From Cyclobacterium xiamenense (lineage in GTDB: Bacteria > Bacteroidota > Bacteroidia > Cytophagales > Cyclobacteriaceae), in contig NZ_WIOK01000012.1 in the NCBI RefSeq assembly GCF_009467825.1, positions 107,531-171,530 on the forward strand: a DNA stretch of 64,000 nt. The letters are read 5' to 3'. Position numbers and translations under genes: made by a program. Below are positions 1 through 27,254 of the stretch, one piece after another; within the stretch, counting starts at the first letter, position 1; each line of letters begins with the position of its first letter. Below the pieces are notes generated by a model. The model searched no databases. It saw only the letters and a program-made list of their open reading frames with translations, and was not told where the DNA came from.

Positions 1-1
1 T

Positions 2-400: not shown

Positions 401-3400
401 ATGAAAAGAAAACTACTGTACCTAATCAAAATGGTATCGAAGAACCTATTGTACGGATTGGTACTTCAATGTTTGTTCCTGACAACATTGATGGCGCACG
501 AGATGCACGCCCAGATCATACCCATCGATGAATCCTATATTCGGCTGAAAAAAGCCGAATGGGATCTCGGAGAAGTTTTCCGCGAAGTGGAAAAAGAGAC
601 GGATTACCAGTTCGTCTTTCCGGAAGAAATTTTGACTACTTCTACCCTACTGACCCTCAATAGCAAACGACAAACGGTCAATGCGTTGTTGGTAGACATC
701 GCTCTTGGCGCCAACCTGCGATTTAAACAGGTGGATAACTCCATCTATGTAGCAAAGGGGAACCGCTCTCTTTCTGAATCGGCCGTAGAAATACGCATCG
801 AAGCCCGCCCGATCACTGGAAAGATCGTTGACGCCAACGGAGAAGGAATTCCCGGGGCAACAGTTCTGGTGGAGGGAACTGCTACTGGCACGGCTTCAGA
901 CATTGATGGGAACTTCAGCCTGGAAGTACCAGACAATGCCGTTCTGGTCATTTCTTACATCGGGTACGAATCCCAGCGTGTAGAAGTAGGCAATCAAAAT
1001 GAACTCACGATTACCCTGTCCGAAGACCTTTCCTCCCTGGATGAAATCGTGGTGGTCGGCTACGGTACGCAGAAAAAAGTAAACCTTACCGGAGCCGTGA
1101 GCACGGTCACCTCGGAGGACATCGTCAATCAACCGGTAGGCCAGACCTCCATGGCGCTTCAGGGAGTAGCGCCCGGTGTCACCATTACACAGCGAAGTGG
1201 GCAGCCCGGGCGCGACGGAGGTGCCATTCGTATCCGGGGCGTGGGAACGCTTGGAGATTCCAATCCGCTGGTCATGGTGGATGGGGTCGAGACCAGCATC
1301 AATAACGTGGATCCCAACGAAATAGAAAGCATCTCCATTTTGAAAGATGCCTCTTCCGCCGCCATTTACGGTGCACGGGCGGCCAATGGCGTGGTTTTGA
1401 TTACCACCAAACGAGGTGTGGAAGGCGTTCGGGTTAACTATAATATGTACGCGGGATTCCAGATGCCTACCCGGCTGCCGACGATCGTCGGAGCCCTGGA
1501 TCACATGGAAATGGCCAACGAAGCCTTCACCAACGTGGGCAACGACCCCCAATACTCCGAACAATTTCTCGCCGATTACCGGGCAGGCATGCCCTCCGAC
1601 CAGTATCCCGACACGGACTGGCAGGCGCTGACCATGAAAAATTCGGCCTTTATGCAAAATCACAACGTCAGCATCAATGCGGGCAGTGAGAAAGCCAAGG
1701 TATTTGGCTCCATCAGCTACCTGGACCAGGACGGAATTATTCCAAACACCGATTTCAACCGGTTTAACCTCCGGCTCAATTCGGACGTGAACGTTTCGGA
1801 AAAACTTACCCTGTCCACAGATTTATTTTTGAGCAGGTCGTTTCAGCGTGAACCATCCTCCGGTACCGGCTACGTGTTTCACTGGATGCGCCGCATTCCC
1901 GCCAACGAAGTAGGGATTCTATCCAATGGGCGATACGGAGAAGGCTGGAACGGGGACCATCCCCTGGCCCGTGCCCGGGACGGTGGCCTGCGTACCGTGG
2001 AGAGCCTCGATGCCATCCTCAACTTTCGCGTGAATTATAAATTTACCGATTGGCTATCCGCCGAATTGATGTATGCACCAAAGTTTTGGAACCCCCATAC
2101 CAAGAGTTTTTCAAACATCACCCAGACCTATGCCCGCGACGGGGAGACACCCACGCACTTCGTGCCCCAGCGGAATTCCCTCACGGAACGGTACGACCGG
2201 GAATGGTACAATAATATCCGGGCCATCGTGTCGATGGACAAAACTTTTGGCGAGCTGCATACCCTTGGAATTACGGCAGGTTACCAGCAGGAAGACCAAA
2301 CCAATCAGTGGATTTCTGCTTATCGGGAGGTATTTCCGCTTCCCCAATACCAGCAAATCAATGCCGGTAACCGGGCAAACGAGCAAACTGGCGGTGCCGC
2401 CTCTCACTGGGCCTTGCAATCGGTTTTCGGCAGGGTGACCTACAATTACGACGAACGCTACCTCCTGGAAGGAAATGTGCGTAGGGATGCATCTTCTCGT
2501 TTTGCCGAGGGAAATCGCTCCGGTGTATTTCCTTCCTTTTCTGCAGGCTGGCGGATTTCCGAAGAAAGCTTCATGCAGGGTTCCTCCGGGATCATTGACC
2601 AGTTGAAGTTACGGGCCAGTTGGGGGCAACTGGGCAACCAAAATATCGGTTTGTACCCCTTTGCTGCATTCATGTCCCTCGGGGGCGGCGGTCAGGATTA
2701 CGCCTTTAATGGAGCCAATGCACCCGGAGCCGCATTGAATAGCATGGCCAACTCCTCCATACAGTGGGAAACCACCGAAACGACAGATATCGGATTGGAG
2801 CTGAACCTGTGGGGCAAATTGGATGTCACCGCCGATTACTACATGAGAAGGACCAAGGACATCTTACTTGCCCTGAACATCCCCCAAACCATCGGTCTAA
2901 GTGCTCCTTTTCAGAATGCCGGAGAGGTGAAAAATAACGGCTTCGAATTGATGGTAAACTACCGGAACAAGATTGGGGAACTCAATTACGGCATCATGCT
3001 CAACTATTCGGACGTGCGCAACGAAATTGTCGACATGCGCGGAATTGAAAATACCGGACTTACCGTAAACAGAGAAGGGTATCCCATAGGGTCGTTCTTT
3101 GGCTACATTTCCGAAGGCTTGTTTCAAACCCAGGAGGAAGTAAACAATCATGCCGACCAATTCGGTAACGTAGCGCCGGGAGATATCAAATACCGGGATG
3201 TGGATGGAGATGGTATGATCAATGACCGCGATCTGGCGGTGATCGGAAGCCCCATTCCCCGGCATACCTTTGGGCTGCGCCTGAATGCAGACTATAAGGG
3301 GTTTGATTTTTCCCTGTTTCTGCAGGGAGTTGGCCAGGCAGATGGCTACCTCTTTGGCCAGGGGATCATGCCATTTTTCCTTGGAGGAACCGTACATGAA

Positions 3401-3727
3401 CAGCACAAAGATCGCTGGACGCCGACCAATACCGATGGATCCTTTCCCCGATTGGCCTGGAATCAAACCAATAACGAACAGAATTCAAGTTTTTGGATGC
3501 GTAATGCAGCCTATCTACGCGGACAAAACGTACAGCTAGGCTATTCCATTCCAAAGCGCGTGCTGGACCCGATGAATATCGGAAGCGTACGGGTGTACCT
3601 GAGCGGCAGAAATCTGTTTACCGTAACGGATTTTTACGAGGGGTACGATCCGGAAGCACCGGTCAGCAATGGCGGCTGGTACCCGCAGATGGCTACCTAC
3701 ACCATGGGCTTGAATGTCAACTTCTAA
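401..3727 (+). CDS. SusC/RagA-family TonB-dependent transducer with STN domain
   Basis: 1108 residues with an N-terminal signal peptide (hydrophobic stretch at about 16-32). Then come an STN domain (about 41-118), a carboxypeptidase-like regulatory domain (about 136-215), a TonB-box-like segment DEIVVVGYG, a plug domain with LVMVDGVE and the ILKDASSAAIYGARAANG motif, and a long beta-barrel ending in phenylalanine. SusC proteins import oligosaccharides across the outer membrane with TonB energy, together with a SusD lid. The STN domain marks this one as a signal transducer, and it directly follows a FecR gene. The SusD partner starts 13 bases after the stop. The ATG at 401 gives a normal basic N-terminus and signal peptide. 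The substrate is unknown; the neighbouring sulfatases suggest a sulfated glycan. Confidence 0.96.
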   Translation: MKRKLLYLIKMVSKNLLYGLVLQCLFLTTLMAHEMHAQIIPIDESYIRLKKAEWDLGEVFREVEKETDYQFVFPEEILTTSTLLTLNSKRQTVNALLVDIALGANLRFKQVDNSIYVAKGNRSLSESAVEIRIEARPITGKIVDANGEGIPGATVLVEGTATGTASDIDGNFSLEVPDNAVLVISYIGYESQRVEVGNQNELTITLSEDLSSLDEIVVVGYGTQKKVNLTGAVSTVTSEDIVNQPVGQTSMALQGVAPGVTITQRSGQPGRDGGAIRIRGVGTLGDSNPLVMVDGVETSINNVDPNEIESISILKDASSAAIYGARAANGVVLITTKRGVEGVRVNYNMYAGFQMPTRLPTIVGALDHMEMANEAFTNVGNDPQYSEQFLADYRAGMPSDQYPDTDWQALTMKNSAFMQNHNVSINAGSEKAKVFGSISYLDQDGIIPNTDFNRFNLRLNSDVNVSEKLTLSTDLFLSRSFQREPSSGTGYVFHWMRRIPANEVGILSNGRYGEGWNGDHPLARARDGGLRTVESLDAILNFRVNYKFTDWLSAELMYAPKFWNPHTKSFSNITQTYARDGETPTHFVPQRNSLTERYDREWYNNIRAIVSMDKTFGELHTLGITAGYQQEDQTNQWISAYREVFPLPQYQQINAGNRANEQTGGAASHWALQSVFGRVTYNYDERYLLEGNVRRDASSRFAEGNRSGVFPSFSAGWRISEESFMQGSSGIIDQLKLRASWGQLGNQNIGLYPFAAFMSLGGGGQDYAFNGANAPGAALNSMANSSIQWETTETTDIGLELNLWGKLDVTADYYMRRTKDILLALNIPQTIGLSAPFQNAGEVKNNGFELMVNYRNKIGELNYGIMLNYSDVRNEIVDMRGIENTGLTVNREGYPIGSFFGYISEGLFQTQEEVNNHADQFGNVAPGDIKYRDVDGDGMINDRDLAVIGSPIPRHTFGLRLNADYKGFDFSLFLQGVGQADGYLFGQGIMPFFLGGTVHEQHKDRWTPTNTDGSFPRLAWNQTNNEQNSSFWMRNAAYLRGQNVQLGYSIPKRVLDPMNIGSVRVYLSGRNLFTVTDFYEGYDPEAPVSNGGWYPQMATYTMGLNVNF

Positions 3728-3740
3728 ACAGCAGCAACCG

Positions 3741-5420
3741 ATGAAAAATATACGTAACTATCTACTATTAATACCTGTTCTGCTCCTTTCATTTTCCTGT
3801 GAAGATGCGTTTCTGGAGCGACTTCCCCTGGATTCTCCATCCAGTGAAACCTTCTTTGAGAACGAAACGGAACTGGAAATGGCCGTGACCGGGGTATACA
3901 ACCGCCTCTGGTACTGGCCGGCAGGCGTTGCCTGGTTTTTATCCTTTGATTTTGCTTCCGATGATGGGTGGGATCGAAATGGTAGCCCCCTGCAGGCATT
4001 GGGCCGAGGCGAACAAAATGCCGATAATTCCTATACCAATGGTTTTTGGGCACACTTCTACCGGGCAATCAACCGCACCAATTTTATCACCTCGCGGGCT
4101 GATCACCTACGGGACGAAATGGATCCGGCCAAATACGACCGGCTGGTAGGAGAAGCCCGATTCATACGCGCCTATTTCTATGCCTACCTCGCGGAATTGT
4201 ACGGGGATGTTCCGTTGGTAACCAGCACGCTTACCCTCGAAGAGTCGCAGACGCCACGTACCCAAAAATCAGCGGTCATTGATTTTGTTTTACAAGAACT
4301 CAATGCGATCAAACCCCACCTTCCCTTGGATGTTAGCGAAAAGGGACGAATCAGTCGGGGTACAGTACTGGCGCTTATGTCCCGCGTGGCTTTGTGGAAC
4401 GAGCGATGGGATGTGGCTGCCAGCGCAGCCAAAGAATTGATCGATTCGGGAACCTACTCCGTGGATCCCAATTACGAGGGCATGTTCACGTTTGCCGGGG
4501 ATAATTCTCCGGAGGTAATCACCCGAATTCAATACTTACGCGGTGTGCAGACCCATAACCTGCCTCGAAATTTCTGGTCGCGAATGGCCCTGGGCCACTC
4601 CAATAAAAAGCCACCGCAGGACTTTGTGGATACCTACGACTGCATCGACGGGTTGCCGATCGATGAATCACCGCTGTACGATCCGCTACGTCCCTTTGAA
4701 AACAGGGATCCCCGGTTGCATTATACCTTGGTGGTGCCTGGTACCCGATTGGTTAATTGGATCTATGAAACCCATCGGGATAGCACCATGACCTGGGAGT
4801 TTCGCGGAGAGGATAGCGTACGCGTACCGAATATCGAAGCCCAGCACGCTTTTGCTTCCTTTACGGGTTATTTGTACCGAAAGCACATTGATGTGGCAAA
4901 CTACCCTACGGATGTGGGGTCTACCGACCAAAACCTGACCATTTTCCGGTTCGGAGAGGTCTTGTTGAATTATGCCGAAGCGAAGGTGGAATTGAATCAA
5001 ATTGATGAAAGCGTATACGACGCGATCAATGCCCTGCGGCAGCGGGAGTCGGTGCAAATGCCCGCCATCGATCCCGGTAAGAGCCAGCAGGAAATGAGAA
5101 ACCTGGTGCGAAAAGAAAGGCGGCACGAATTGGGCATGGAAGGCTTTCGCTATTTCGATATCCGTCGCTGGGGAATTGCCGAAGAGGTTATCCCGGGGCC
5201 TTACCGCGGTAGGGTAAACCGGTACGGCGAAGGGGGCTGGCTAAGCGAAGCACCTAGGATCGATCCCATTGGTACGCCAAGCTACGACCACATCAGCAAT
5301 GTAGAAGACATGGTGGTGATCGAGACCCGTAATTTTAATCCTCAGCGGGATTACCTATGGCCCATTCCGCGAATTGAACTGGAAACGAATACCACCTTGA
5401 CCCAGAATCCGGGTTATTGA
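3741..5420 (+). CDS. RagB/SusD-family outer-membrane lipoprotein
   Basis: 559 residues. The ATG at 3741 was chosen because it gives [20 protein letters not shown], a lipoprotein signal peptide with the lipid-accepting cysteine near residue 20. An upstream frame extension to 3714 overlaps the SusC stop and spoils the signal. The N-terminal [19 protein letters not shown] segment, the TPR-like helices around [21 protein letters not shown], and the C-terminal [33 protein letters not shown] and YLWPIPRIE segments are classic SusD family marks. SusD proteins bind the glycan at the cell surface and cap the partner SusC barrel. It lies directly behind the STN-type SusC. Confidence 0.96.
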
Positions 5421-5430
5421 TCCTGTCCCC

Positions 5431-7233
5431 ATGCACGGAATAGTCGTTGCCCTGGAATCCTGCTGCTTATCCAAGCGGTGGGATTCCATTTCTTTCAGAA
5501 AAAAGCCAAATTCCGGGATTCCCGGAACAAAAAAGGAAGCAATTCCCCTGTTGTTTTTTCTAGGTTTGTGCCTGGTCTTTTGGCATCCGAAAACGGGTTT
5601 CACACAGGATACGTACGATTTGGTAGTATATGGCGGGACCTCTGCGGGTGTCACAGCGGCCATACAGGCGGCGCGAATGGGAAAAACGGTAGCCTTGATC
5701 GAACCTGGAAATCGGCTGGGTGGATTGACTACCGGAGGCCTGGGGCAAACCGATATCGGCAACAAGCAGGCAATCGGAGGGATTGCCCGGGAATTTTACC
5801 GCAATATTTACCTGTATTACAATCAGGCAGAAAATTGGGATTGGCAAAAAAAAGAAACGTACAAAGGAGTGGCTTATTCCCGTACAGAAGATGGAGAAGA
5901 AACCATGTGGACCTTTGAGCCTTCTGCTGCCCTTCGGGTTTTTACCCAGATGCTTGAACAGGAGTCAGGGATCGTTAGTGTTTACGGCCAAAGGTTGGAG
6001 CGCACAGCAGGCGTTATTCGGGAAAACCGGCTGATTCGTGCGATCGAAATGGAGAGTGGCAGGCGCTTTCATGGAAAAGTATTCATCGATGCCAGTTACG
6101 AAGGAGACTTGTTGGCTGCTGCTGGGGTGAGTTATACTCTTGGAAGGGAGTCTAACGACCAATACGGTGAAACGCTAAACGGTGTACAGGCCAATTCCTA
6201 TGGTGTCACGCTGCGGGGCAGGCTGGCAAAAAATGGACAAAACCATAATTTGCTGGCAGGCGTCGACCCGTTCCAAATACCCGGCAATCCCGATTCGGGC
6301 TTACTGCCCCACATCAGTTCCAATGGTCCGGGAGTAGACGGGATCGGAGACCGGAAGATTCAGGCCTATTGTTTTCGGATGACACTTACCGATCACCCGG
6401 ATAACCGCATTCCCTTTGAAAAACCGGCTTCCTACGACGAGTCCCACTACGAATTGCTTTTCCGGAATTACGAGGCGGCGAGCGATCTGGAAACCATGTA
6501 CGATTACGGAGTACCGTACCTTCCCTGGGCCAATTCGGCCATGCCCAATCGAAAAACCGATACCAACAACAAACACGGATTTTCAACCGATTTTATTGGC
6601 CAAAATTATGGTTACCCGGAGGGAAGCTATGATGAACGGGAAAAGATCAAGGAAGCACACCGAGCCTACCAAAAGGGCTTGATGTGGACCCTGGCCTACC
6701 ACCCCAGAATTCCGGAAAGGGTTCGCAAGGAGGTCTCGCGCTGGGGTACCTGTAAAGATGAATTTAGTCGGGCGGACGGCTGGCCGGAACAATTGTACAT
6801 CCGGGAAGCCCGCCGAATGCTGGCTGATGTGGTGATGACCCAACGGCATTGCGAAGGCCTTGACGTAGTGGAGGATCCCATCGGGCTGGCGGCGTATGGG
6901 ATGGATTCCCATCACGTGCAGCGGTACGTGGATGCAAATGGCTTTGTCAGGAACGAAGGGAATGTGGAGGGAGGGGTGCCCGGCCCCTATCCCATTAGCT
7001 ACCGGGCCATTGTTCCCAAAAGAGGAGAGGTGGAAAACCTGTTGGTGCCTGTTTGCCTAAGCGCCACGCACATCGCCTTTGGTTCGATTCGCATGGAACC
7101 GGTATTTATGGTCCTGGGTCAGTCTGCTGGAATGGCAGCGGCTTTGGCCATCAATCGCGACCTTGCCGTTCAGGATTTGCCCTACGCACAATTAAAATCA
7201 GCATTAATCGCTCATAAACAACGGTTGGAATAG
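5431..7233 (+). CDS. Exported FAD-dependent oxidoreductase, paralog 1 of 4
   Basis: 600 residues from the ATG at 5431. The Rossmann motif [20 protein letters not shown], the second FAD motif [20 protein letters not shown] and the C-terminal [20 protein letters not shown] place it in the FAD_oxidored (PF12831) family often found in Bacteroidota and Planctomycetota glycan loci. The substrate is not known for these proteins. The hydrophobic export signal begins only at about residue 37 ([14 protein letters not shown]). The true start may therefore be an in-frame TTG at 5551 or another non-ATG codon; ATG 5431 is the only upstream ATG. The gene begins 10 bases after susD, so the two are probably cotranscribed. 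Closest relative in the window is the next gene (shared CKDEF/AKDEF, REARRM and AAYGMDSH blocks). Confidence 0.88.
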
Positions 7234-7272
7234 GAAAAAATCCCTAAATTCAATCACATAAATTAAAGAAGC

Positions 7273-8982
7273 ATGAAAAACTATTTATTAACGATATACT
7301 TCGTTTTTTCAGTCCTGACCCTGCAACCGGCTCAGGCACAAGGCCAATCGTTTGACATTGTCATCTACGGAGGGACCTCCGCAGGTGTAGCCGCCGCCAT
7401 CCAAAGTTCCCGCATGGGCAAATCAGTCATTCTGATTGAGCCCTCTGCCCACGTCGGTGGACTCACCACAGGCGGCCTTGGGGCTACCGATATTGGAAAC
7501 AAACAGGCCATCGGCGGCATTTCCAGGGAGTTTTATCAGGGGATCAAACGGTACTACGACAACCCGGACAACTGGACCTGGCAGGAACGGTCCGACTACT
7601 TTACCCGTCCGGACCAGGGCAGGTCCAAAGAGGGAGAAGATGCCATGTGGACCTTCGAACCCTCCGCAGCCAAAGCCGTGTACGAAGAGATGATGGCCGC
7701 TGAAACCATTACCCTGGTTACCGAAAAGCGGCTTAATCGTGCTACCGGAGTGGCCCTACAAAACAACCGCATCGTAGCCATCACCATGGAAAGTGGGGAA
7801 ACCTATCGGGGAAAGGTTTTTCTCGATGCTACCTACGAAGGCGACTTGCTGGCAGCGGCAGGGGTGAGTTACATGGTTGGAAGGGAAGCCAATAGCGAAT
7901 TTGGTGAAACACTCAATGGCGTTCAAGCCAATTACTACAACCGGACCCTGAAAAATGCGGTCTCCCGCAATGCCATTCACCACAATTTTATCCCCGGTGT
8001 GGATCCCTATGTAGAAAAAGGTAATCCCTCCAGTGGCTTGCTTCCCTTCGTCATTAAAGGCGGTCCGGGTATCGACGGAACCGCAGACAATAAGCTACAG
8101 GCCTATTGCTACCGCATGACCCTTACCGATCATCCGGATAACCGGATTCCCTTTGAGAAGCCCGCCAACTACAAGGAACTGGAATACGAGTTGCTGTTCA
8201 GAAATTACGAGGCAGCCACTGGCCCGCTGGAGGAAATGTACCACTACGGAGACCCCCTCGTGCCCTGGATCAATACCCCCATGCCCAATAGAAAAACGGA
8301 TACCAATAACCAAAAAGGATTTTCTACCGATTTTGTCGGTCAAAATCACGGTTTTGCCGATGCGAGTTACGAAGAGCGGGAGGCCATCGCTCAGCGCCAC
8401 CTGGAATACCAGCAAGGGTTGATGTGGACACTGGCCTACCATCCCCGCATTCCCCAAAAAGTACGAGATGTGGTTTCCAAATGGGGGATGGCCAAAGACG
8501 AATTTGAACAACGTGAGGGCTGGACACCCCAACTGTACATCCGCGAGGCGCGAAGGATGCGCAGCGATTACGTGGTTACCCAGCGGGATTGTGAAGGCCT
8601 GGAGCCTCCCGTAAGCGATGTGGTAGGGTTGGCAGCCTACGGCATGGATTCCCACATGGTACAGCGGTACGTGGACCACAATGGGTACGTGCAGAATGAA
8701 GGCAACTTTGAGGCCCATGTGCCAGAACCCTACCCCATTCCTTACCGCGCCATTGTACCCAAAAAAGGGGAGACGGAAAATTTACTGGTACCCGTATGCG
8801 TGAGTTCCACCCATGTGGCCTTCGGGTCCATCCGTATGGAACCGGTATTCATGGTGCTGGGGCAATCCGCCGCCACCGCTGCCTCACTGGCCATCGATAG
8901 GAACGTATCCGTTCAGGAGCTGGATTATCAGGTATTGGGCGCCAAACTGAAAGCCGATGGACAAATTCTGGAACACCGGTAA
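7273..8982 (+). CDS. Exported FAD-dependent oxidoreductase, paralog 2 of 4
   Basis: 569 residues with a clean signal peptide (MKNYLLTIYFVFSVLTLQPA, probable cleavage after AQA). It has [20 protein letters not shown], the [18 protein letters not shown] motif, and the C-terminal [19 protein letters not shown] block. Long segments match the preceding gene almost word for word, including the NRKTDTNN motif, [13 protein letters not shown] and [15 protein letters not shown], so the two arose by tandem duplication. It starts 39 bases after paralog 1. The protein should act in the periplasm or at the cell surface and use bound FAD to oxidise or reduce a substrate, presumably a sugar. That last point is inferred from context only. 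Confidence 0.92.
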   Translation: MKNYLLTIYFVFSVLTLQPAQAQGQSFDIVIYGGTSAGVAAAIQSSRMGKSVILIEPSAHVGGLTTGGLGATDIGNKQAIGGISREFYQGIKRYYDNPDNWTWQERSDYFTRPDQGRSKEGEDAMWTFEPSAAKAVYEEMMAAETITLVTEKRLNRATGVALQNNRIVAITMESGETYRGKVFLDATYEGDLLAAAGVSYMVGREANSEFGETLNGVQANYYNRTLKNAVSRNAIHHNFIPGVDPYVEKGNPSSGLLPFVIKGGPGIDGTADNKLQAYCYRMTLTDHPDNRIPFEKPANYKELEYELLFRNYEAATGPLEEMYHYGDPLVPWINTPMPNRKTDTNNQKGFSTDFVGQNHGFADASYEEREAIAQRHLEYQQGLMWTLAYHPRIPQKVRDVVSKWGMAKDEFEQREGWTPQLYIREARRMRSDYVVTQRDCEGLEPPVSDVVGLAAYGMDSHMVQRYVDHNGYVQNEGNFEAHVPEPYPIPYRAIVPKKGETENLLVPVCVSSTHVAFGSIRMEPVFMVLGQSAATAASLAIDRNVSVQELDYQVLGAKLKADGQILEHR

Positions 8983-9219
8983 GCACGTTGGGGGCGCATC
9001 TTGGCCGGTGTATTGAACCTGGGTGACATGCGGCATCGCTGCTTCCCTCCAGCAAAAATGACATTCGTTGGCAGGCGAGAGTCTTGTTTACTACCTAATC
9101 AATAAAATCGAGCCCGCCTGAGGCCGAGCGGACGATGGCTGTGACCTACTAAAGAATGATCCCCTATCGGCGCATGCTCCCGTACCTATAAAAAGTCGAA
9201 AAAAATAATCGCTGAACGC

Positions 9220-10626
9220 ATGAAACCAAACAAAAACCGCAGGTCATTTCTTAAAAAAATCGGTACGTCTGCGGCGCTTGCCGCCGGAGTTCCACCGGCA
9301 ATGTCTGCCGGCCGGAACCGACCCGGTAGCCCCCAATACCTGAGTATTCCCGCTAAAAACAAATCATTCGCCCCTAATGACATCATTCGGATCGCGGTCA
9401 TTGGCAGCGGTGGTATGGGAATCGGCGATGTCAATACGGCGCTACTCGTGGACGGGGTAGAAGTGGTGGCTGCCTGCGATTTGTACGATGGCCGCCTGCT
9501 TCGGGCAAAGGAACTATGGGGCAAGGATTTGTTTACTACCAAAGATTACCGGGAAATTCTGCAGCGGCCGGATATCGATGCCGTGATCAACGCCACCACC
9601 GACCACTGGCACCAGAAAATATGCCTGGATGCGATGGAAAGCGGCAAACACGTCTATTGCGAAAAGCCCATGGTTCAAAAATCCGAAGACGGTCATGCGA
9701 TCATTGCCATGCAAAAAAAGACCGGTAAGGTTTTTCAGGTAGGCAGTCAATACGTGAGTTCCATCATTCATGCCAAGGCAAAGGAATTGATTGAGGCGGG
9801 GGAAATCGGAGCGATTAATTTTGCCGAAGCCCAAATAGACCGGCATAGCGCCCGGGGAGCCTGGCAATACACCCTTCCCCTGGATGCTTCACCGGAGACT
9901 GTGGACTGGGACACGTACCTGGGTTCGGCTCCCAAAAGGCCCTGGGATCCGCTTCGTTTTTTCCGCTGGCGAAACTACCGGGACTACGGGACCGGAGTGG
10001 CCGGAGACCTGTACGTACACATGCTATCCATGCTCCATTTTGTCACCGGCTCCAAGGGCCCCAACCGGATATTGGCCACCGGAGGACTTCGGTACTGGAA
10101 AGACGGCAGGGATGTTCCGGACCTGCATGTGGGCTTATTCGATTACCCCGAAACCCCGGAACATCCGGCCTTTAACCTGGCATTGCGAACCAATCTGGTC
10201 AGTGGGGGAGGAGATAATTTTCTGTTTCGAATCGTGGGATCGGAAGGAGACATCTCCATTGGATTTTCCGGGCTCGTGCTACGAAAAACCCCCTTTCCTG
10301 CCGACCCAGGCATGTCCCTCAACAGTTTTCCGGAGGCCATGCAGGAAGCCATTAAGGCCGATCATTACAAAAAATATCCCCAAAAAGCTTCCCTGGTTGG
10401 GCCTTCGGTCTTTGAATTCAAGGTACCTGCTGATTACAAAGGGGACCGGTACGAACACTTTGTCAACTTCTTTGACTCCATCCGAACCGGCAAACCGGTC
10501 GTGGAAGATGCGGTGTTTGGGTTGCGGGCTTCCGGGCCTACCGAAGCCGGAAATATCAGTTATTTCGAAAAGAAAATCGTTGGCTGGGATCCGGAAAAAA
10601 TGGAAATACGGCCAAATGCGTCCTAA
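9220..10626 (+). CDS. Tat-exported Gfo/Idh/MocA-family oxidoreductase
   Basis: 468 residues. The N-terminus NRRSFLKKIGTSAALAAG is a twin-arginine signal, so the protein is exported folded with its cofactor. The Rossmann segment IRIAVIGSGGMGIGDVNTA follows at about residue 59 and the family lysine motif YCEKPMVQ at about residue 147; the C-terminal half is the usual substrate-binding sheet. Gfo/Idh/MocA enzymes use NAD(P) to oxidise or reduce sugars; exported members often carry tightly bound cofactor. The gene stands among the FAD oxidoreductases but is separated from paralog 2 by 237 bases, the largest gap in the run, so it may have its own promoter. The exact sugar and position oxidised cannot be read from the sequence. 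Confidence 0.93.
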   Translation: MKPNKNRRSFLKKIGTSAALAAGVPPAMSAGRNRPGSPQYLSIPAKNKSFAPNDIIRIAVIGSGGMGIGDVNTALLVDGVEVVAACDLYDGRLLRAKELWGKDLFTTKDYREILQRPDIDAVINATTDHWHQKICLDAMESGKHVYCEKPMVQKSEDGHAIIAMQKKTGKVFQVGSQYVSSIIHAKAKELIEAGEIGAINFAEAQIDRHSARGAWQYTLPLDASPETVDWDTYLGSAPKRPWDPLRFFRWRNYRDYGTGVAGDLYVHMLSMLHFVTGSKGPNRILATGGLRYWKDGRDVPDLHVGLFDYPETPEHPAFNLALRTNLVSGGGDNFLFRIVGSEGDISIGFSGLVLRKTPFPADPGMSLNSFPEAMQEAIKADHYKKYPQKASLVGPSVFEFKVPADYKGDRYEHFVNFFDSIRTGKPVVEDAVFGLRASGPTEAGNISYFEKKIVGWDPEKMEIRPNAS

Positions 10627-10695
10627 GCAAAAAAAAACAGAGCAAGCAAGATACCATCATAACATAATCAACACGCACGTTAAATCTTATTTCGT

Positions 10696-12378
10696 ATGAT
10701 CCAGTTAAACCGAATTAAACATGCCCTGCTGGCCCTCATCCTGCTGCCCGTTTTGGTAGCTTGTGGCCCCGACCAAGAGCAGGAAGAGATCACCGATGTA
10801 ATCGTCTATGGCGGTACTTCTGGTGCCATTACAGCGGCCATTCAAGCAAAAAAAATGGGGAAATCCGTGATCGTCGTTTCCCCAGATACACACCTGGGCG
10901 GGCTGACCGCAGGGGGACTGGGATGGACGGATACCGGTAAAAAGGAAGTCATCGGTGGCCTTTCCCGAGAGTTTTACCAGCGCGTCTACGACAAGTACCA
11001 GGAAGAAGGTGCCTGGAAATGGGAGGACCGGGAGGATTTTGGAAACAAAGGCCAGGGTACGCCGGCCATAGACGGTGCGTTTCGCACGATGTGGATATTT
11101 GAACCCCATGTGGCCGAAGAAGTCTACGACGAATGGGTGGAGGAGTTGGGAATTGAGGTACTCAGAGACGAATGGCTGGACCGCGAAAACGGCGTCACCG
11201 TTGAAGAAGGGAAAATCACCGCGATCCGCACCCTGAGTGGAAAGGAATTTACCGGGAAAATGTTTATCGATGCAACCTACGAAGGGGATCTGATGGCCGC
11301 CGCTGGGGTGAGTTACCATGTCGGAAGGGAGGCCAATAGCGTATACGGTGAAGAGTGGAACGGCGTGCAAACAGGCGTCTACCACCACAAACACCATTTT
11401 AAGGTATTGGACCAGCCCATCGATCCGTATTGGATTCCCGGAGATCCTTCCTCCGGACTCTTGCCGAGGATAAGTGCCGAGGACCCGGGCGTAAAGGGCG
11501 AAGGCGATAACAAAGTGCAAGCCTATTGCTTCCGTACTTGCATGTCCAACCATCCGGATAACCGGGTACCCTTCCCCCGACCAGCGAATTACGATTCCAC
11601 CCAGTACGAATTATTGGTTCGGATTTTTGATGCCGGCTGGAGGGAGTGGTTTGGGAAATTTGATATGATTCCCAATCGGAAAACCGATACCAATAATCAC
11701 GGACCCTTTAGTTCGGACAACATCGGCATGAACTACGACTATCCCGAGGCAAGTTACGAACGCAGAAAGGAGATCATCAAGGAACACGAGGACTACCAAA
11801 AAGGACTGCTGTATTTTGTAGCAAACGATCCTCGGGTGCCGAAAGAAACGCAGGAGGAATTTCAGAAATGGGGATTAGCCAAAGATGAGTTTACCGATAA
11901 CGGCAACTGGCCGCATCAGATTTATGTTCGCGAAGCACGGCGCATGATCGGATCCTACGTCATGACCGAAAACGAATTGCTGCAGAAAAAGCCAACCCCC
12001 GAATCCGTGGGCATGGGTTCGTATACCATCGATTCCCATAACATACAGCGCTATGTGGATGAAAACGGCCACGTGCACAACGAAGGGGATATCGGCGTAC
12101 CCCTGCCGCAACCGTACGAGATCGCATACGGATCGCTCGTTCCCAAGAAAGAAGAAATTGAGAATTTGGTGGTTCCCGTAGCGGTTTCCGCCAGCCATAT
12201 CGCATTTGGCTCTATTCGCATGGAGCCCGTATTTATGATATTGGGTCAGTCAGCAGCCACCGCCGCGGTCATGGCCATGGAGCAGGGAATTCCCGTGCAG
12301 GACCTGCCCTATGCCGAGCTGCGAACGCGCCTGCTTGCCGACGGGCAGGTACTGACCCTGGAAGACCGTATACAATAA
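10696..12378 (+). CDS. Lipoprotein FAD-dependent oxidoreductase, paralog 3 of 4
   Basis: 560 residues. MIQLNRIKHALLALILLPVL followed by VAC is a lipoprotein signal with the cysteine near residue 23, so this copy is membrane-anchored, unlike paralog 2. FAD motifs are present: TDVIVYGGTSGAITAAIQAK, HLGGLTAGGLGWTDTGKK and [19 protein letters not shown]. The family blocks [14 protein letters not shown] and DSHNIQRYVD are kept, but the sequence is clearly more diverged than paralogs 1 and 2, with changed loops (CMSNHPDNRVPF and DAGWREWFGKFDMIPN). A sulfatase gene begins 12 bases downstream, which implies cotranscription and action on the same sulfated substrate. Confidence 0.92.
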   Translation: MIQLNRIKHALLALILLPVLVACGPDQEQEEITDVIVYGGTSGAITAAIQAKKMGKSVIVVSPDTHLGGLTAGGLGWTDTGKKEVIGGLSREFYQRVYDKYQEEGAWKWEDREDFGNKGQGTPAIDGAFRTMWIFEPHVAEEVYDEWVEELGIEVLRDEWLDRENGVTVEEGKITAIRTLSGKEFTGKMFIDATYEGDLMAAAGVSYHVGREANSVYGEEWNGVQTGVYHHKHHFKVLDQPIDPYWIPGDPSSGLLPRISAEDPGVKGEGDNKVQAYCFRTCMSNHPDNRVPFPRPANYDSTQYELLVRIFDAGWREWFGKFDMIPNRKTDTNNHGPFSSDNIGMNYDYPEASYERRKEIIKEHEDYQKGLLYFVANDPRVPKETQEEFQKWGLAKDEFTDNGNWPHQIYVREARRMIGSYVMTENELLQKKPTPESVGMGSYTIDSHNIQRYVDENGHVHNEGDIGVPLPQPYEIAYGSLVPKKEEIENLVVPVAVSASHIAFGSIRMEPVFMILGQSAATAAVMAMEQGIPVQDLPYAELRTRLLADGQVLTLEDRIQ

Positions 12379-12390
12379 ACCAGCTTGCGA

Positions 12391-14166
12391 ATGCATCGAT
12401 TGATAGCGTATCTTTTTTTGCTGGTTTTTGGTGGAGCGCTGCTGCCCGCTTGTCAGCAGGCAGCCCCGGAGCGCCCACCAAACCTGCTGGTAATCCTGAC
12501 CGACGATCAGGGATGGGGAGACTTGAGTTACTCCGGTAATCCCCATCTTTCTACACCAGCTATCGATGCGCTTGCCCGGCAGGGCGTAAGTTTCGATCGG
12601 TTTTACGTGTCGCCGGTGTGTTCGCCTACCCGGGCGGAAATGCTGACGGGGCGGTACCACCTGAGAGGAGGGGTAAGGGGAACCTCCGCCGGAGAGGAGC
12701 GACTGGACCTGGACGAAACCACTTTTGTGGAACTGTTTCAGCAGGCGGGATACGCCACGGCTGCCTTTGGCAAATGGCATAACGGCATGCAGCATCCCTA
12801 CCATCCCAATTCCAGAGGATTTGACACCTTTTATGGTTTCTGTTCCGGACATTGGGGGGATTACTTCAGCCCCCCATTGGAAGAAAACGGCATCCCCGTT
12901 CAAGGAAAGGGCTACCTGCCGGATGATCTGACCGATAAGGCCATGGACTTTATGCATGCGCATCGGGACGAACCCTTTTTGGTTTATTTACCGCTGAATA
13001 CGCCCCATTCTCCCATGCAGGTTCCGGATTCCTGGTGGGAACGTTTCGAAAACAAACCGCTGGATAGCCTGGTAGCCGGAGAAGATCCGGACTTTACACG
13101 GGCTGCTCTGGCCATGTGTGAAAACATCGATTGGAATGTCGGCCGTCTGCTGGAAAAGCTGGAAAACCTGGGACTTACCGAAAATACGCTGGTGGTTTAT
13201 TTTACCGATAACGGACCCAATAGCTTTCGCTGGAACGGAGGCATGAAGGGTAGAAAAGGCTCCACAGACGAGGGAGGCGTGCGGAGCCCCTTCTTTATGC
13301 AATGGAAAGGCCACATTCCGGAAGGGAAAGTGATCCCCCAAATTGCCGGAGCCATCGATTTGTTTCCCACTTTTCTGGATATGGCGGGCCTCACCCATTC
13401 CGGCGAAAAGCCGCTGGACGGCAAAAGCCTGAAGCCGCTGATTATGGAGGAAGACCCCTCCTGGACTGACCGGATGATTTTCAGCCACTGGAATGGAAAC
13501 AGCAGCTTGCGCACGCAAAAGTACCGGTTGGATAAGGACGGGAACCTGTTCGACATGGAATCCGATCCTGGTCAGCAGCAACCGGTTCAGGATCAGTACC
13601 CCGAAGTAGCCGAAAATCTCCGGGAAGCACTGGTTGAATGGGAAATGGCGATGGTGGAAGAACAGGCGAAAGATCCGGAAAACCGCCCTTTTACCCTGGG
13701 CGCACCGCAGGCGCCACTGACACAGTTGCCCGCACGAGATGGCATGGCCCACGGGTCGATCCAACGATCCAACCGTTTTCCCAACGATTCCTTTTTCACC
13801 CATTGGGTCAGTCTGGAAGACAGCATTACCTGGGAGGTCGAGGTCCTGGAAGCAGGCGACTACCGGGTGGAGGCGTACTACACCTGCCCGAAGGGAGATG
13901 TGGGTGCCGAAATTCGCCTACAGGCAGGGACAACCCACCTGGATGCTCGGGTAAAGGAAGCACACGACCCTCCCCTTGAGGGCATGGAAAACGACCGGAT
14001 CGACCGGATGGAGTCCTATGTGAAAGAATTCAAGCCCATGCACTTGGGCAGCATTTCATTGAAGAAAGGTATACAAACGATCAGCCTGAAAGCCCTGCGA
14101 ATTCCAGGAAATCAGGTGATGGACGTACAAAAATTGCTAGTCAAACCTGTTGAAATAACCCAATAA
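12391..14166 (+). CDS. Lipoprotein sulfatase (formylglycine type) with C-terminal beta-rich domain
   Basis: 591 residues from the ATG at 12391; an in-frame TTG six bases earlier is the only rival start. The signal ends in a lipobox (LLPAC). The alkaline-phosphatase-fold sulfatase domain shows metal-binding LTDDQGWGD, the formylglycine motif CSPTR at about residue 77, GKWHNGMQHPYHP, and YFTDNGPN. The cysteine must be converted to formylglycine by a sulfatase-maturing enzyme, which is not in this window. After about residue 440 comes an extra beta-rich region (WEVEVLEAGDYRVEAYYTC) that looks like a carbohydrate-binding module. It is sandwiched with 12-base gaps between FAD oxidoreductase paralogs 3 and 4. 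Role: removal of sulfate esters from a glycan; regiospecificity unknown. Confidence 0.95.
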   Translation: MHRLIAYLFLLVFGGALLPACQQAAPERPPNLLVILTDDQGWGDLSYSGNPHLSTPAIDALARQGVSFDRFYVSPVCSPTRAEMLTGRYHLRGGVRGTSAGEERLDLDETTFVELFQQAGYATAAFGKWHNGMQHPYHPNSRGFDTFYGFCSGHWGDYFSPPLEENGIPVQGKGYLPDDLTDKAMDFMHAHRDEPFLVYLPLNTPHSPMQVPDSWWERFENKPLDSLVAGEDPDFTRAALAMCENIDWNVGRLLEKLENLGLTENTLVVYFTDNGPNSFRWNGGMKGRKGSTDEGGVRSPFFMQWKGHIPEGKVIPQIAGAIDLFPTFLDMAGLTHSGEKPLDGKSLKPLIMEEDPSWTDRMIFSHWNGNSSLRTQKYRLDKDGNLFDMESDPGQQQPVQDQYPEVAENLREALVEWEMAMVEEQAKDPENRPFTLGAPQAPLTQLPARDGMAHGSIQRSNRFPNDSFFTHWVSLEDSITWEVEVLEAGDYRVEAYYTCPKGDVGAEIRLQAGTTHLDARVKEAHDPPLEGMENDRIDRMESYVKEFKPMHLGSISLKKGIQTISLKALRIPGNQVMDVQKLLVKPVEITQ

Positions 14167-14178
14167 ACGTAAACGAAT

Positions 14179-16188
14179 ATGAAACGAAACATGCTCCTTT
14201 GGGCTTGCCTGGTTGGGATGCTCCTGTCTTCCTGCAAGGAAGCAAATGAATCCAATGAAACCTACGATTTGGTCGTGTACGGGGCTACGTCCTCCGGTGT
14301 GATTGCGGCCTATACTGCCAAAACCATGGGAAAATCCGTGTTGCTGGTAGAGCCGAGCCAACACTTGGGCGGCCTAACCACCGGGGGCCTCGGGTATACG
14401 GATATCGGCAACAAATATGCCGTCACGGGACTTTCCCGGGATTTTTACCGAAGATTGGGCGATCATTATGGGAAATTCGAACAGTGGATATTTGAACCCA
14501 GCGTGGCCAAAAAGACCTTTCAGGACTACCTGGATGAGGTGGGAATTGAGGTGCAGTACGGATGGAGAATAGACGCTGCAACGAAAGAGGAGGGTTGGAT
14601 TACCGAAATTCGTTTGGAAAATGCGGCGGATCCCTCCGGGGCAAAACGGTCCGTTTCCGGAAAGATGTTTATCGATGCTACCTACGAGGGAGACCTGATG
14701 GCCCGGGCTGGTGTTTCCTACACCATCGGTAGGGAACCCAACGATCAGTACGGCGAAACGTATAACGGCGTACAATTAATGACCGGTCATCAGTTTCCCG
14801 ACGGCGTTGACCCCTACCAAACTCCCGGGGATCCTTCGAGTGGCCTGCTTTGGGGGATTAGTGAGGATGCGTTGGAACCAGATGGTACCGGCGACGATAA
14901 AATCCAGGCCTATAACTACCGCATTTGCCTGACCAATGATCCGGCAAACCGCATAGAAATCACTGAACCCGAAGGCTACGACCCTTCCATGTTCGATTTA
15001 TTGGTGCGGCTCTTTGAGGCACAACCCGATCGGCGCAGCCTTGGCAATTACTTTATCTGGAGCCGTATGCCAAATAGCAAAACGGACATCAACAACCGGG
15101 GCGGCTTTTCCACCGATATGATTGGTATGAACCACGATTACCCGGAGGCAGATTATGCAACCCGTCAGGAAATCATCGATGCGCACACCCACTACACCCA
15201 ATCCCTGCTCTATTTTTACAAAACAGATCCCCGTGTACCAACGGAGCTACAGGAGCAGATACAGGAATGGGGCTACCCCAAAGACGAGTACGTGGACAAT
15301 GGACACTGGACTCCCCAACTCTATGTGCGAGAAGTCAGGCGCATGGTCGGAGAATACGTTATGACGCAGGCCAATTGCGTGGGAGAAGCGGTAGTGGACG
15401 ATGGCGTTGGCATGGCGGCCTACACCATGGACTCCCACAATATTCAGCGGATTGTGATCGAAAAGGAGGGCAAAAAGATGGTCAAAAATGAAGGAAACGT
15501 GGAAATAGGCGGATTTGGTCCGTATCCCATTGCCTACCGTTCCCTTATTCCCAAATCGGACGATGCAAAAAACCTGCTGGTGCCCGTAGCGCTGTCCGCC
15601 AGTCATATTGCCTACGGGTCCATCCGCATGGAGCCGGTATTTATGGTGTTGGGACAGTCGGCAGCCGTAGCTGCCAGTATGGCCATTGACGGAGGACAGG
15701 CGGTTCAGGAAGTAGATGTACCGGCCCTTCAGGAAGAACTCAAGACGAATCCGCTGGCGGATGGTAGTACGGCGGATATTCTGGTGGACAACGACGATTT
15801 GGCACAGGTGAGCCTGGTAGGAAATTGGGAAAAGATGAGTAGGGGAGGGTATGGCCCCAGTTTTTTAGTTGCAGGTAGTGCCGGTAATAATTCCGTCCGG
15901 TTTCGCCCCACCATCAGGGATGAAGGAAAATATGGCGTATACGTATATTTTTCCCGGGTAGCCGAGGCCAGTTCTCAAACCCATATCGTATTGGGAGATG
16001 GATTTGAGGAACACGAAATGGTGATCAAGGAAGAGGATATCCGGGTAGAGGGGCAGACTTCCGGCGAATGGGTGCATTTGGGAGATTATGATTTTAAGCC
16101 CAATACCTCACCTTTTGTAGAAGTCTCCAACAAAAATGCCGATGGCAATGTGGTAGCCGATGCCGTTTTGTGGGTGCCGGTAAGGTGA
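14179..16188 (+). CDS. Lipoprotein FAD-dependent oxidoreductase, paralog 4, with golvesin-like C-terminal domain
   Basis: 669 residues, the longest of the four. MKRNMLLWACLVGMLLSSC is a lipoprotein signal. The FAD motifs are [38 protein letters not shown] and [20 protein letters not shown]. Relative to paralogs 1 and 2 it lacks the tryptophan-rich insert after YRRLGDHYGKF. It also gains about 150 residues at the C-terminus, beginning near ADILVDNDDLAQVSLVGNWE and ending in VVADAVLWVPVR. That extension resembles the golvesin/xanthan-lyase-associated beta-sandwich found at the end of many glycan-active enzymes. It closes the compact run that began with susC. Function beyond FAD-dependent redox chemistry is not established. 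Confidence 0.92.
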   Translation: MKRNMLLWACLVGMLLSSCKEANESNETYDLVVYGATSSGVIAAYTAKTMGKSVLLVEPSQHLGGLTTGGLGYTDIGNKYAVTGLSRDFYRRLGDHYGKFEQWIFEPSVAKKTFQDYLDEVGIEVQYGWRIDAATKEEGWITEIRLENAADPSGAKRSVSGKMFIDATYEGDLMARAGVSYTIGREPNDQYGETYNGVQLMTGHQFPDGVDPYQTPGDPSSGLLWGISEDALEPDGTGDDKIQAYNYRICLTNDPANRIEITEPEGYDPSMFDLLVRLFEAQPDRRSLGNYFIWSRMPNSKTDINNRGGFSTDMIGMNHDYPEADYATRQEIIDAHTHYTQSLLYFYKTDPRVPTELQEQIQEWGYPKDEYVDNGHWTPQLYVREVRRMVGEYVMTQANCVGEAVVDDGVGMAAYTMDSHNIQRIVIEKEGKKMVKNEGNVEIGGFGPYPIAYRSLIPKSDDAKNLLVPVALSASHIAYGSIRMEPVFMVLGQSAAVAASMAIDGGQAVQEVDVPALQEELKTNPLADGSTADILVDNDDLAQVSLVGNWEKMSRGGYGPSFLVAGSAGNNSVRFRPTIRDEGKYGVYVYFSRVAEASSQTHIVLGDGFEEHEMVIKEEDIRVEGQTSGEWVHLGDYDFKPNTSPFVEVSNKNADGNVVADAVLWVPVR

Positions 16189-16381: not shown

Positions 16382-17920
16382 ATGTCAAAATTGGTCTTTT
16401 TCTTCGTGTTTGTGCTTAATACGGGTTGCCTGTGCGGGCAGGCACCGGATCCGGACATGCTTACGCTAAGGGTCGACCCGCAAATCAGCTATCAGACCAT
16501 TGATCATTTTGGCGCCTCTGATGCCTGGTCCGGGCAGTTTGTGGGCAACTGGCCCGAACACAAAAAAAACGCCATTGCCGATTGGCTGTTTAGCAAAGAG
16601 GTGGACGCTGCGGGAGATCCCTTAGGTATCGGCCTTTCCATGTGGCGGATGAACCTGGGCGCAGGAAGTGCCGGGCAAGGAGCGGAAAGCGGGATAAAAG
16701 ATCCCTGGAGAAGGGCACCCTCCTTTGTGGACCAACGTGGGAATTTCGATAAAGAGGGGCAAAAAGGGCAATTGTGGCTGGCCCAGGCAGCGAAGCAACG
16801 ACACGTGGAATACCTGCTGACCTTTTTAAACAGTCCCCCTGTTTGGCTGACCCGGAATGGTAAAGCTTTTGCGGATAGTGGTACCCAGTCTAACCTGGCC
16901 CCGGGAAATTATGGTGCCTTTGCCGATTTTATGGTCGCTTCCCTCACGGGCCTCCAAGAGGAAGGGCTATCCGTGGATTTCATCAGCCCGGTGAACGAAC
17001 CTCAATGGGACTGGGACGATGGCGGGCAGGAAGGGACGCCCTATTGGAACCACGAAATCGCTGGTATTGTAAGATACCTAAATGCAGCATTGGAGGATAG
17101 CGGCCTGCCTACCAAGATCGATATTGCCGAAGCAGGCCAAATCGAGTACCTGTATGAGGAACATAATCGCCCTGGTAGGTCCAATCAGATCGTAGAATTC
17201 TTTGGTAGCAGCAGCCCTAATTTTCTAGGAGATCTGAGCCACGTGAGTCAGGCGATCTCCGGTCACAGCTATTTTACCACGTCCCCTTTCCAAAAAGCCG
17301 TCGAGCAAAGGGAAGTATTGGCAGCGGCTATTCGGCAAGTGCCGGGGCTGAACTACTGGATGTCGGAATACTGCATCCTCGGAGGGAATAACGGGGAAAT
17401 CTCCGGCAATAAGAAGGATTTGGGCATGGCCCCTGCCCTGTACATGGCCCAGGTGATTCATAACGATCTGGTCGTGGCAAACGCCTCTGCCTGGCACTGG
17501 TGGCTGGCCATTTCTCCGTACGATTACAAAGACGGATTGGTATATATTTCCAAGAAAGAAGCCGACGGGGAATTGGAAGACAGTAAGATGCTCTGGACCC
17601 TCGGAAACTACAGCCGTTTTATCCGACCCGGGTACCAGCGGGTTTCCGCCAGGCTGCATGGGGATCAATCTGGGGATGGGGATTTGCTGGCTTCGGCGTA
17701 TCGGGATCCCAAGTCGGGTAATCTGGTCATGGTGTTGGTAAACGCTACTTCTGTAGCAGCAACAATAGCCGTACGGGTACTTGGTGGAGAATCGGGTGAA
17801 AAATGGACGGCTTACCTGACGGACCCGGACCATGATTTGGCCTTCGGGGAAATTTCTTCCATTGAAGAACTGCTTGTTCCTGCCCGCTCCGTACTTACGC
17901 TTACCAATGGCTCTTACTAA
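16382..17920 (+). CDS. GH30-type glycoside hydrolase, endo-beta-1,6-galactanase-like
   Basis: 512 residues with an N-terminal signal peptide. The sequence follows the GH30/clan A pattern: IDHFGASDAWSGQF near the start of the barrel, GIGLSMWRMNLGAG, SPPVWLTRNGKA, the acid/base glutamate in SPVNEPQWDWDD (about E206) and the nucleophile glutamate in YWMSEYCILGG (about E329). A small beta-sandwich follows (LVMVLVNATSVAATIAVRV). This layout is that of the family annotated as endo-beta-1,6-galactanase (Glyco_hydr_30_2). It would cut inside a galactan or arabinogalactan side chain in the periplasm or outside the cell. It sits downstream of the oxidoreductase/sulfatase run and points to a galactose-rich substrate, though other GH30 specificities cannot be excluded. 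Confidence 0.88.
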   Translation: MSKLVFFFVFVLNTGCLCGQAPDPDMLTLRVDPQISYQTIDHFGASDAWSGQFVGNWPEHKKNAIADWLFSKEVDAAGDPLGIGLSMWRMNLGAGSAGQGAESGIKDPWRRAPSFVDQRGNFDKEGQKGQLWLAQAAKQRHVEYLLTFLNSPPVWLTRNGKAFADSGTQSNLAPGNYGAFADFMVASLTGLQEEGLSVDFISPVNEPQWDWDDGGQEGTPYWNHEIAGIVRYLNAALEDSGLPTKIDIAEAGQIEYLYEEHNRPGRSNQIVEFFGSSSPNFLGDLSHVSQAISGHSYFTTSPFQKAVEQREVLAAAIRQVPGLNYWMSEYCILGGNNGEISGNKKDLGMAPALYMAQVIHNDLVVANASAWHWWLAISPYDYKDGLVYISKKEADGELEDSKMLWTLGNYSRFIRPGYQRVSARLHGDQSGDGDLLASAYRDPKSGNLVMVLVNATSVAATIAVRVLGGESGEKWTAYLTDPDHDLAFGEISSIEELLVPARSVLTLTNGSY

Positions 17921-23830: not shown

Positions 23831-23858
23831 GCGAATACGAATAAAAAATAAGCGCAAT

Positions 23859-25439: not shown

Positions 25440-25470
25440 TTGCGGATTATCGCAGGCAATGCCTGTTTGA

Positions 25471-25502
25471 AAAGGGCATCCACCGGGTGCCCTTTTTTTT
25501 TA
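25471..25502 (+). terminator. Intrinsic terminator of the second susCD pair
   Basis: A GC-rich stem (agggcatcc with gggtgccct, including one G-T pair, loop acc) is followed by an unbroken run of about 10 T. It lies about 30 bases after the SusD-like stop codon. A small palindrome, caggcaatgcctg, just upstream at 25453-25465 may assist. Confidence 0.9.
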
Positions 25503-25618
25503 CCCTGGGGCCATCAATAGCTCCGGCTGGAAAATCAGCGGAGCCTTACGGAGGGAATTGACAAAAATTCTCTATCTTGGTTTGAAAATTTTCTTCACCA
25601 ATAACCGATATTCCGTTC

Positions 25619-27175: not shown

Positions 27176-27254
27176 AACCTGCGAAGGGGCCTGATTGGCG
27201 AATGGCGCCGTTTCTTTTAAAATTCGACGTTTACCCGTAAAAGAAATAAACGAG

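Follow-up and report, generated by a model that had tools for sequence, protein, structure and literature searches.

The lactose 3-dehydrogenase of Caulobacter, LacABC, has three components: a LacA-type flavoprotein, its cytochrome c and a small subunit. It is one of the described systems closest to the subject of this report, a run of genes in Cyclobacterium xiamenense that encodes four exported flavoproteins of family PF12831 (FAD1 to FAD4) together with a SusC/SusD pair, a Gfo/Idh/MocA oxidoreductase and a sulfatase. The run lies in a stretch of 64,000 nucleotides (contig NZ_WIOK01000012.1, positions 107,531 to 171,530 of the forward strand), which we call the window and number from its first letter. 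DUF1080 (PF06439) is a 3-keto-glycoside hydrolase that partners a periplasmic 3-dehydrogenase (PMC9007349); BT2158 of Bacteroides thetaiotaomicron is a periplasmic glycoside 3-dehydrogenase (PMC11300592); and an Agrobacterium operon encodes flavin oxidation, elimination, hydration and Gfo reduction in succession, as GlycDH - OGE - HYD - Gfo (PMC10628242). These sources, and the other PMC articles named below, are represented here by excerpts. Judged by their phylogeny, the four flavoproteins of the window are old, distinct relatives that have been kept together, not fresh copies of one gene.

On the plus strand the order is susC, susD, FAD1, FAD2, Gfo, FAD3, Sulf1, FAD4 and then GH30, with gaps of -14, 10, 39, 237, 69, 6 and 12 bases from susC to FAD4 and of 193 bases from FAD4 to GH30. 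The gene susC (401-3727; a SusC/RagA TonB-dependent transporter, TIGR04056, 1003.5 bits) overlaps by 14 bases susD, which encodes a glycan-binding lipoprotein (3714-5420; PF07980, 4.6e-46). The reading frames of FAD1 (5431-7233), FAD2 (7273-8982), FAD3 (10696-12378) and FAD4 (14179-16188) are open throughout, without an internal stop. Between FAD2 and FAD3 lies the gene for the Gfo/Idh/MocA oxidoreductase (9220-10626; PF01408, 1.6e-18), whose signal resembles one for twin-arginine translocation (Tat) and contains RRSFLKK, which we take to be a Tat-like motif. Between FAD3 and FAD4 lies Sulf1 (12385-14166; PF00884, 3.3e-61), an S1-type sulfatase lipoprotein with a C-terminal extension, in which CSPTR is present. 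Gaps and profile matches thus agree with the original prediction of a compact same-strand run of susCD, a Tat-signal Gfo/Idh/MocA enzyme and a sulfatase. As in a polysaccharide utilisation locus (PUL), susC and susD are adjacent (TIGR04056, PF07980), and carbohydrate-active enzymes, the sulfatase and the GH30-like one, are part of the same run.

How does this arrangement compare with the described ones? The likeness to BT2157-BT2159 of B. thetaiotaomicron consists in an exported Gfo/Idh/MocA enzyme, a periplasmic setting and, in three relatives of the window locus, a PF06439 gene after the Gfo gene. It differs in that the window run is without a PF06439 gene, and the window Gfo protein, at 126.9 bits against a cut-off of 750, was rejected as a member of the BT_2158_fam glycoside 3-dehydrogenase equivalog (NF058561). 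To our knowledge the BT2157-BT2159 pathway has no PF12831 flavoenzymes. GlycDH belongs to a different flavoenzyme family from PF12831. Its operon nevertheless shares with the window the combination of a flavoenzyme and a Gfo gene and the logic of oxidising, cleaving and reducing, but it was shown to act on small natural-product glycosides, and the excerpt mentions neither SusCD nor a sulfatase. The Caulobacter system, as excerpted, likewise oxidises sugars in the periplasm with a PF06439 hydrolase at hand; the run holds no counterpart of LacABC, its flavoproteins being of PF12831 and the 10 proteins scanned having no cytochrome domain. Finally, PULs for sulfated glycans such as carrageenan and sulfated arabinogalactan resemble the window run in combining SusCD with a carrageenan-related sulfatase, and differ in that the window run has only one GH30-like enzyme, plus four flavoenzymes.

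The tree that carries the main finding contains 139 full-length rows out of 156; it was made by a quick search and rooted at the midpoint, and the placement of its long branches is unsure. Excluded were seven short or truncated-contig loci (L043, L046, L052, L056, L064, L076 and L106, where L numbers denote loci) and four rows below 400 bits, which are divergent paralogues; six identical sequences were counted once. FAD1 and FAD2 fall in separate parts of clade A, a Bacteroidota group of 52 rows (support 98). FAD3 belongs to clade B, whose 30 Bacteroidota rows (support 100) are nested among sequences from Planctomycetota and Verrucomicrobiota, and FAD4 to clade C, 15 rows (support 96) found only in genomes of the family and on one contig shared with them. 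Clades A and B extend to several further families of Bacteroidota. For three of the four window proteins, the nearest named relative in the tree is from Cyclobacterium plantarum or a same-genus genome. The original prediction had called for such a tree and had spoken of one redox enzyme as multiplied inside a single utilisation locus. FAD1 and FAD2 do share a clade, but FAD3 and FAD4 stand in two others; with the copies in three clades, that multiplication is not upheld, and local gene amplification was rejected as the origin of the set.

Clades A and B tend to travel together. Both are present in 24 of the 28 loci with at least two tree members, where shuffling expects 14.2 and 0 of 10,000 rounds reach 24; the shuffle, like the Poisson tests used for neighbouring genes, treats related loci as independent. 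The pair occurs in Pseudozobellia, Maribacter (M. aquimaris among them), Arenibacter, Membranihabitans, Proteiniphilum, Sunxiuqinia and others. The exceptions are L136, which has two clade A genes on a contig that soon ends, and L141, L142 and L143, which have B and C without A. The order clade B - Sulf1 - clade C recurs in the window and in L068, L072, L128, L129, L131, L133 and L134; L132 and L135 keep B - Sulf1, with clade C missing or very short. The same locus is found in L128 and L129, from same-genus genomes, and in L068, from C. plantarum, and in these three nearest relatives and the window clade A itself has 2 to 3 copies.

How common are such sets? A PF12831 match at E 1e-80 or better is present in 54 of the 148 genomes of the family sample. 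In 33 of these the largest same-strand cluster is a single gene; 8 have a pair, 7 a trio, 4 (the window's among them) a set of four and 2 a set of five; these copy numbers are lower bounds, as the family search scored 9 candidates per genome and the phylum search 3. Of 395 genomes sampled across the phylum, 14 have a match at E 1e-180 or better. The survey of four-copy loci that had been proposed thus finds at least four copies in 6 of 148 genomes, and loci of this kind are therefore uncommon, not unique. One set of relatives' loci comprised the best 80 of 585 and leans towards the query, and two contigs each carry two labels (L072 = L130 and L066 = L139). Some further PF12831 genes were seen along the way. 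A divergent one with a Tat-like signal, 24% identical to FAD2, is present in L134 (11470-13173), L136 (3540-5243) and L137 (3916-5634), where it separates the clade A genes from the Gfo gene or clade B that follows. On contig 36 of genome G000 (L123, L124), a stretch of about 30 kb encodes a further three PF12831 proteins, of a different kind; a gene read as sodium-symporter-like lies between two of them, and AP_endonuc_2 (PF01261) is near the third.

All four window proteins match the full PF12831 profile (positions 1-416), with 381.7 bits for FAD1, 387.8 for FAD2, 383 for FAD3 and 378.7 for FAD4 against a cut-off of 27, and FAD1 is 62% identical to FAD2, 49% to FAD3 and 51% to FAD4, far beyond chance. 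The claim of four exported flavoproteins with common motifs is thereby borne out, and binding of flavin adenine dinucleotide (FAD) and redox activity are predicted for each. The long identical blocks that had been reported proved exact only in part: SIRMEPVFM[V/I]LGQSA is common to all four proteins, but NRKTDTNN and REARRM are exact in three, FAD4 having NSKTDINN and REVRRM. From the alignments, these blocks are an expression of family-wide conservation. A threonine (Thr35 of FAD2) that is nearly invariant in 74 aligned proteins replaces the second glycine of the usual GxGxxG. Both predicted differences between the copies, in anchoring and at the C-terminus, are also seen. The signal peptides of FAD1 and FAD2 are of the ordinary type, without a lipobox, and both proteins are classed as soluble and exported; FAD3 (LVAC) and FAD4 (LSSC) have a lipobox and are classed as lipoproteins; and FAD4 ends in a Golvesin_C domain (residues 534-663; PF25275, 63.4 bits). 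The true start of FAD1 may be further in than 5431. Of the 74 proteins in alignment A2, where the window's FAD4 stands without its tail, 18 have Golvesin_C. A lipobox was found by rule in 22 of 30 clade B rows, 10 of 15 clade C rows and 8 of 52 clade A rows, the N-termini of clade A rows without one being listed for 14 only; by eye, N-termini identify all 30 clade B rows and 14 of 15 clade C rows as lipoproteins. By these N-terminal features, anchoring is linked to clade, and soluble A proteins and tethered B and C proteins may act in different places.

The AlphaFold2 model of FAD2 is confident (mean pLDDT 93.8, pTM 0.93). A Foldseek comparison with 350,542 PDB chains gave 1917 matches at E up to 10, and the best 50 of these by E-value are flavoproteins alike in the flavin-binding part, with a query TM-score of 0.29 or less. 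The 60 PDB profile matches listed, of 114, lie within positions 6-182 of 548. A solved relative of the predicted substrate part is found neither among the best 50 of 1917 Foldseek matches nor among the 60 of 114 profile matches, and the modelled substrate fold appears unlike any solved structure among the matches listed.

What might such a set of enzymes do? We read the run as a PUL for a sulfated glycan that follows a flavin-based route of oxidation, cleavage and reduction, a reading that we regard as tentative and a little short of probable. SusCD would import pieces of glycan and the sulfatase would strip sulfate. The flavoenzymes would then oxidise ring hydroxyls to keto sugars, each acting on different residues or linkages; analogy alone makes C3 the likeliest position. 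The glycosidic bond, weakened by the keto group, would then be cut by a PF06439-type 3-keto hydrolase, for which this genome has genes outside the run, or by elimination, and the exported Gfo/Idh/MocA enzyme would reduce the keto sugars, or make them. In this scheme the flavoenzyme family suggests oxidation, the SusCD pair, sulfatases and glycosidases suggest a sugar substrate, and the known operons suggest C3; the order of steps and the electron acceptor are likewise inferred. The presence of several intact, non-identical flavoenzymes in one SusCD locus would fit a division of labour.

Counts of neighbouring genes were compared with those expected from the domain densities of 8 genomes, the family-genome densities being applied to other Bacteroidota too. 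Sulfatases number 18 in the 20 family loci (376 kb), against 2.3 expected, and 14 in 34 other Bacteroidota loci, against 3.5. Sulf1 matches the solved structure 9fo1, a k-carrageenan sulfatase of S1_16, at 1.1e-59; carrageenan sulfatases are among its nearest solved relatives, a weak hint that the substrate may be a sulfated galactan. The Gfo gene adjoins the flavoenzyme genes or is one gene away in L048, L055, L059, L061, L133 and L135. In L131, L134 and L136 the gene immediately after Gfo encodes a 3-keto-disaccharide hydrolase (PF06439), the contig of L136 ending just past it, and two more loci, L048 and L142, have PF06439 within their runs. Of the loci bearing Gfo or PF06439, L048 is the least related; it has clade A, PF06439 and Gfo together, with a GH30 relative on the other strand.

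Several observations weigh against the oxidise-cleave-reduce reading. The host genome is itself rich in the domains concerned, with 72 matches for sulfatase, 48 for Gfo and 24 for PF06439; against 72 sulfatase matches, a single sulfatase close by would say little. Loci of Planctomycetota and Verrucomicrobiota show few sulfatase or Gfo neighbours, in a table for which a simple gene caller was used that lost the flavoprotein gene in L078, L088, L099, L108, L113 and L122. Enrichment of PF06439 is weak in the family loci (5 against 1.3 expected, P 0.011 with loci treated as unrelated) and absent from the 34 other Bacteroidota loci (2 against 2.0 expected); PF06439 was rejected as a general partner of the flavoenzyme family, being enriched in family loci only, and weakly. 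A profile scan found no PF06439 gene from susC to GH30 in the window. The window Gfo protein is far under the BT_2158 cut-off, though BT_2158_fam is its best NCBIfam match. Profile scans of the run and the upstream proteins found no electron acceptor gene, and searches of the open-licence literature, outside which most subscription papers lie, found no characterised PF12831 member.

The alternative that survives best is that the substrate is not the glycan backbone at all. The flavoenzymes might act on a non-sugar substituent, a polyol or an aglycone of a sulfated molecule imported by SusCD; we consider this unlikely, though it has a real claim to attention. The PF12831 flavoenzyme family has no known substrate, and its neighbours vary widely between loci: GH3 with a glucoamylase-like gene (L142), GH78-like (L146), GH32 (L050), GH2 (L070), CstA and DUF2961. 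CstA is a small-molecule transporter, and a CstA-type gene lies downstream of clade A or B genes in five loci (L044, which was scanned, and its cluster members L047, L051, L058 and L060). The enrichment of sulfatases, and the SusCD and glycoside hydrolase genes in the same runs, speak for a glycan instead; since neighbours vary between loci, the family may serve several glycans.

A second alternative, the boldest of them, keeps the glycan and does away with net oxidation. In a redox-neutral flavin cycle, one active site would oxidise, eliminate and reduce, as GH4 and GH109 do with NAD, so that FAD1 to FAD4 would be flavin-dependent glycosidases or sulfate eliminases. We think this quite improbable. 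Such a cycle would agree with the want of an electron-transfer partner in the run, but electron acceptors are often encoded away from the genes of their enzymes, which weakens that point. Proteiniphilum is an anaerobe, and the A and B pair found there (L059) makes an oxidase that depends on O2 less likely; nor has the substrate part a solved counterpart among the matches listed. Direct evidence for the cycle is nil, and it would leave the separate Gfo enzyme, and the PF06439 enzyme of relatives, unneeded.

Might at least one of the four be inactive, or have a structural role, for example as a binding protein? Sixteen positions separate the clades, and those in the flavin-binding half include two clade B changes, Glu56 to Ser and Gly38 to Ala; position 56 closes the second strand, and a residue there usually binds the FAD ribose. 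One could take these changes as signs of lost function, but 76 positions that are invariant, H376, H461, H514 and D459 among them (at least 97% in each of clades A, B and C and in 38 other-phylum relatives, nearly all from Planctomycetota and Verrucomicrobiota) are kept, 76 of 76, by all four window proteins, because of which decayed duplicates are unlikely; the original prediction had named inactive duplicates as an outcome that would count against it. In comparisons with same-genus orthologues, the ratio of nonsynonymous to synonymous substitution (dN/dS) is 0.03-0.07 for FAD2 and FAD4, dS being saturated for FAD1 and FAD3, which give no ratio, and amino-acid identity exceeds nucleotide identity in 9 of 9 pairs. 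An inactive copy is thus very unlikely. Least likely of all is a recent tandem amplification for dosage, giving four redundant copies of one activity, which the single family, the adjacent genes and the 2 to 3 clade A copies in the window, L068, L128 and L129 might recall, but which is contradicted by three well-supported clades, each with orthologues in other genera, by clade-linked anchoring and by clade-specific residues.

Features at the borders of the run bear on its extent and control. Upstream, the window begins with the 3' end of a FecR anti-sigma gene (1-307, plus strand; its upstream part is in L148, and the position of the stop codon was computed). Beyond the window start, genes on the same strand encode an 825-amino-acid protein, a cupin, an extracytoplasmic function (ECF) sigma factor and the FecR anti-sigma factor. 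Nine relatives have a FecR-type gene ahead of susC, and four have a sigma-type gene there (clusters c0 and c3, of which 3 members were scanned). With ECF sigma and FecR genes upstream, the stretch from susC to FAD4 looks like one regulated SusCD locus, and these genes suggest induction of the locus by a glycan. The N-terminal extension of SusC resembles an STN signalling domain, without a profile match. The 825-amino-acid protein (L148:5056-7530), encoded upstream of the sigma factor, has no Pfam match over cut-off; its model is of low confidence (mean pLDDT 52.7, pTM 0.36), the hints of a TIM barrel are weak, and the model was not used. Relatives of this orphan (58% identity) adjoin the cassette in L130 and L133, and it is possibly a new glycosidase family.

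Downstream, the GH30-like glycoside hydrolase (16382-17920, plus strand; PF14587, 1.5e-148), 193 bases past FAD4, was rejected as a member of the conserved cassette: in 105 loci searched it has only one relative, 35% identical and on the opposite strand (L048:15434-17020). Sulf2, a second sulfatase (18555-19979, minus strand; PF00884, 3.6e-64), lies on the strand opposite to the cassette. A relative of Sulf2 (81%) adjoins FAD3-Sulf1 in L132, and the association of Sulf2 with the cassette is uncertain. Further along (20321-32046, plus strand) are a second SusCD-like pair with sulfatases at 25619 and 30127, an Sde182 nucleoside-hydrolase-like protein, and another whose match to PF12904 is weak and stays under the cut-off. 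At 51152-56079 on the minus strand, a protein of 1136 amino acids combines HEAT repeats with two 3-keto-disaccharide hydrolase domains and adjoins a second Gfo/Idh/MocA gene; from its domains, this region is likely a 3-keto-glycoside locus elsewhere in the window.

Other excerpts from the literature leave these readings as they were. In Maribacter, an FAD-dependent oxidoreductase beside a SusCD pair was detected on glucose in 2 of 3 samples (PMC11345257), which has no bearing either way, and a Gfo-type GH109 was the most abundant on arabinogalactan (PMC11036162). In Verrucomicrobia, sulfatases adjoin planctomycete-type cytochrome c genes, for which a role in carbohydrate breakdown was suggested (PMC5615132). 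Neither of these last two helps or refutes the proposal, and PMC10197871 and PMC6987092 contain passing mentions without bearing on it. Among the open-licence papers found, only a survey of the Brucella flavoproteome names PF12831/FAD_oxidored, and none was found to describe enzymes of this family in loci of this kind, which is weak evidence of absence. It had been claimed that no pathway of this composition is described: that stands for PF12831 in the open-licence literature, but an operon of flavin oxidation, cleavage and Gfo reduction, as excerpted, is described (PMC10628242). What is new is probably the unstudied flavoenzyme set in a glycan locus, the type of locus and the oxidise-cleave-reduce logic being already known.

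What would the finding mean for the family? An old, distinct set kept together hints at an undescribed oxidative breakdown of polymers. It is a bolder and rather doubtful joint claim that PF12831 clades A, B and C make up an undescribed flavin-based glycan-cleaving system that substitutes for classical glycosidases on sulfated sugars, its cooperating flavoenzymes oxidising, or redox-neutrally eliminating, at different positions. Sulfated glycans are a large, slowly degraded pool of marine carbon. How bacteria finish these glycans is only partly known, and a flavoenzyme set beside sulfatases is a candidate for the missing chemistry. The A and B pair would be a minimal two-gene system, open to direct study in strains already in culture, Maribacter and Arenibacter for example.

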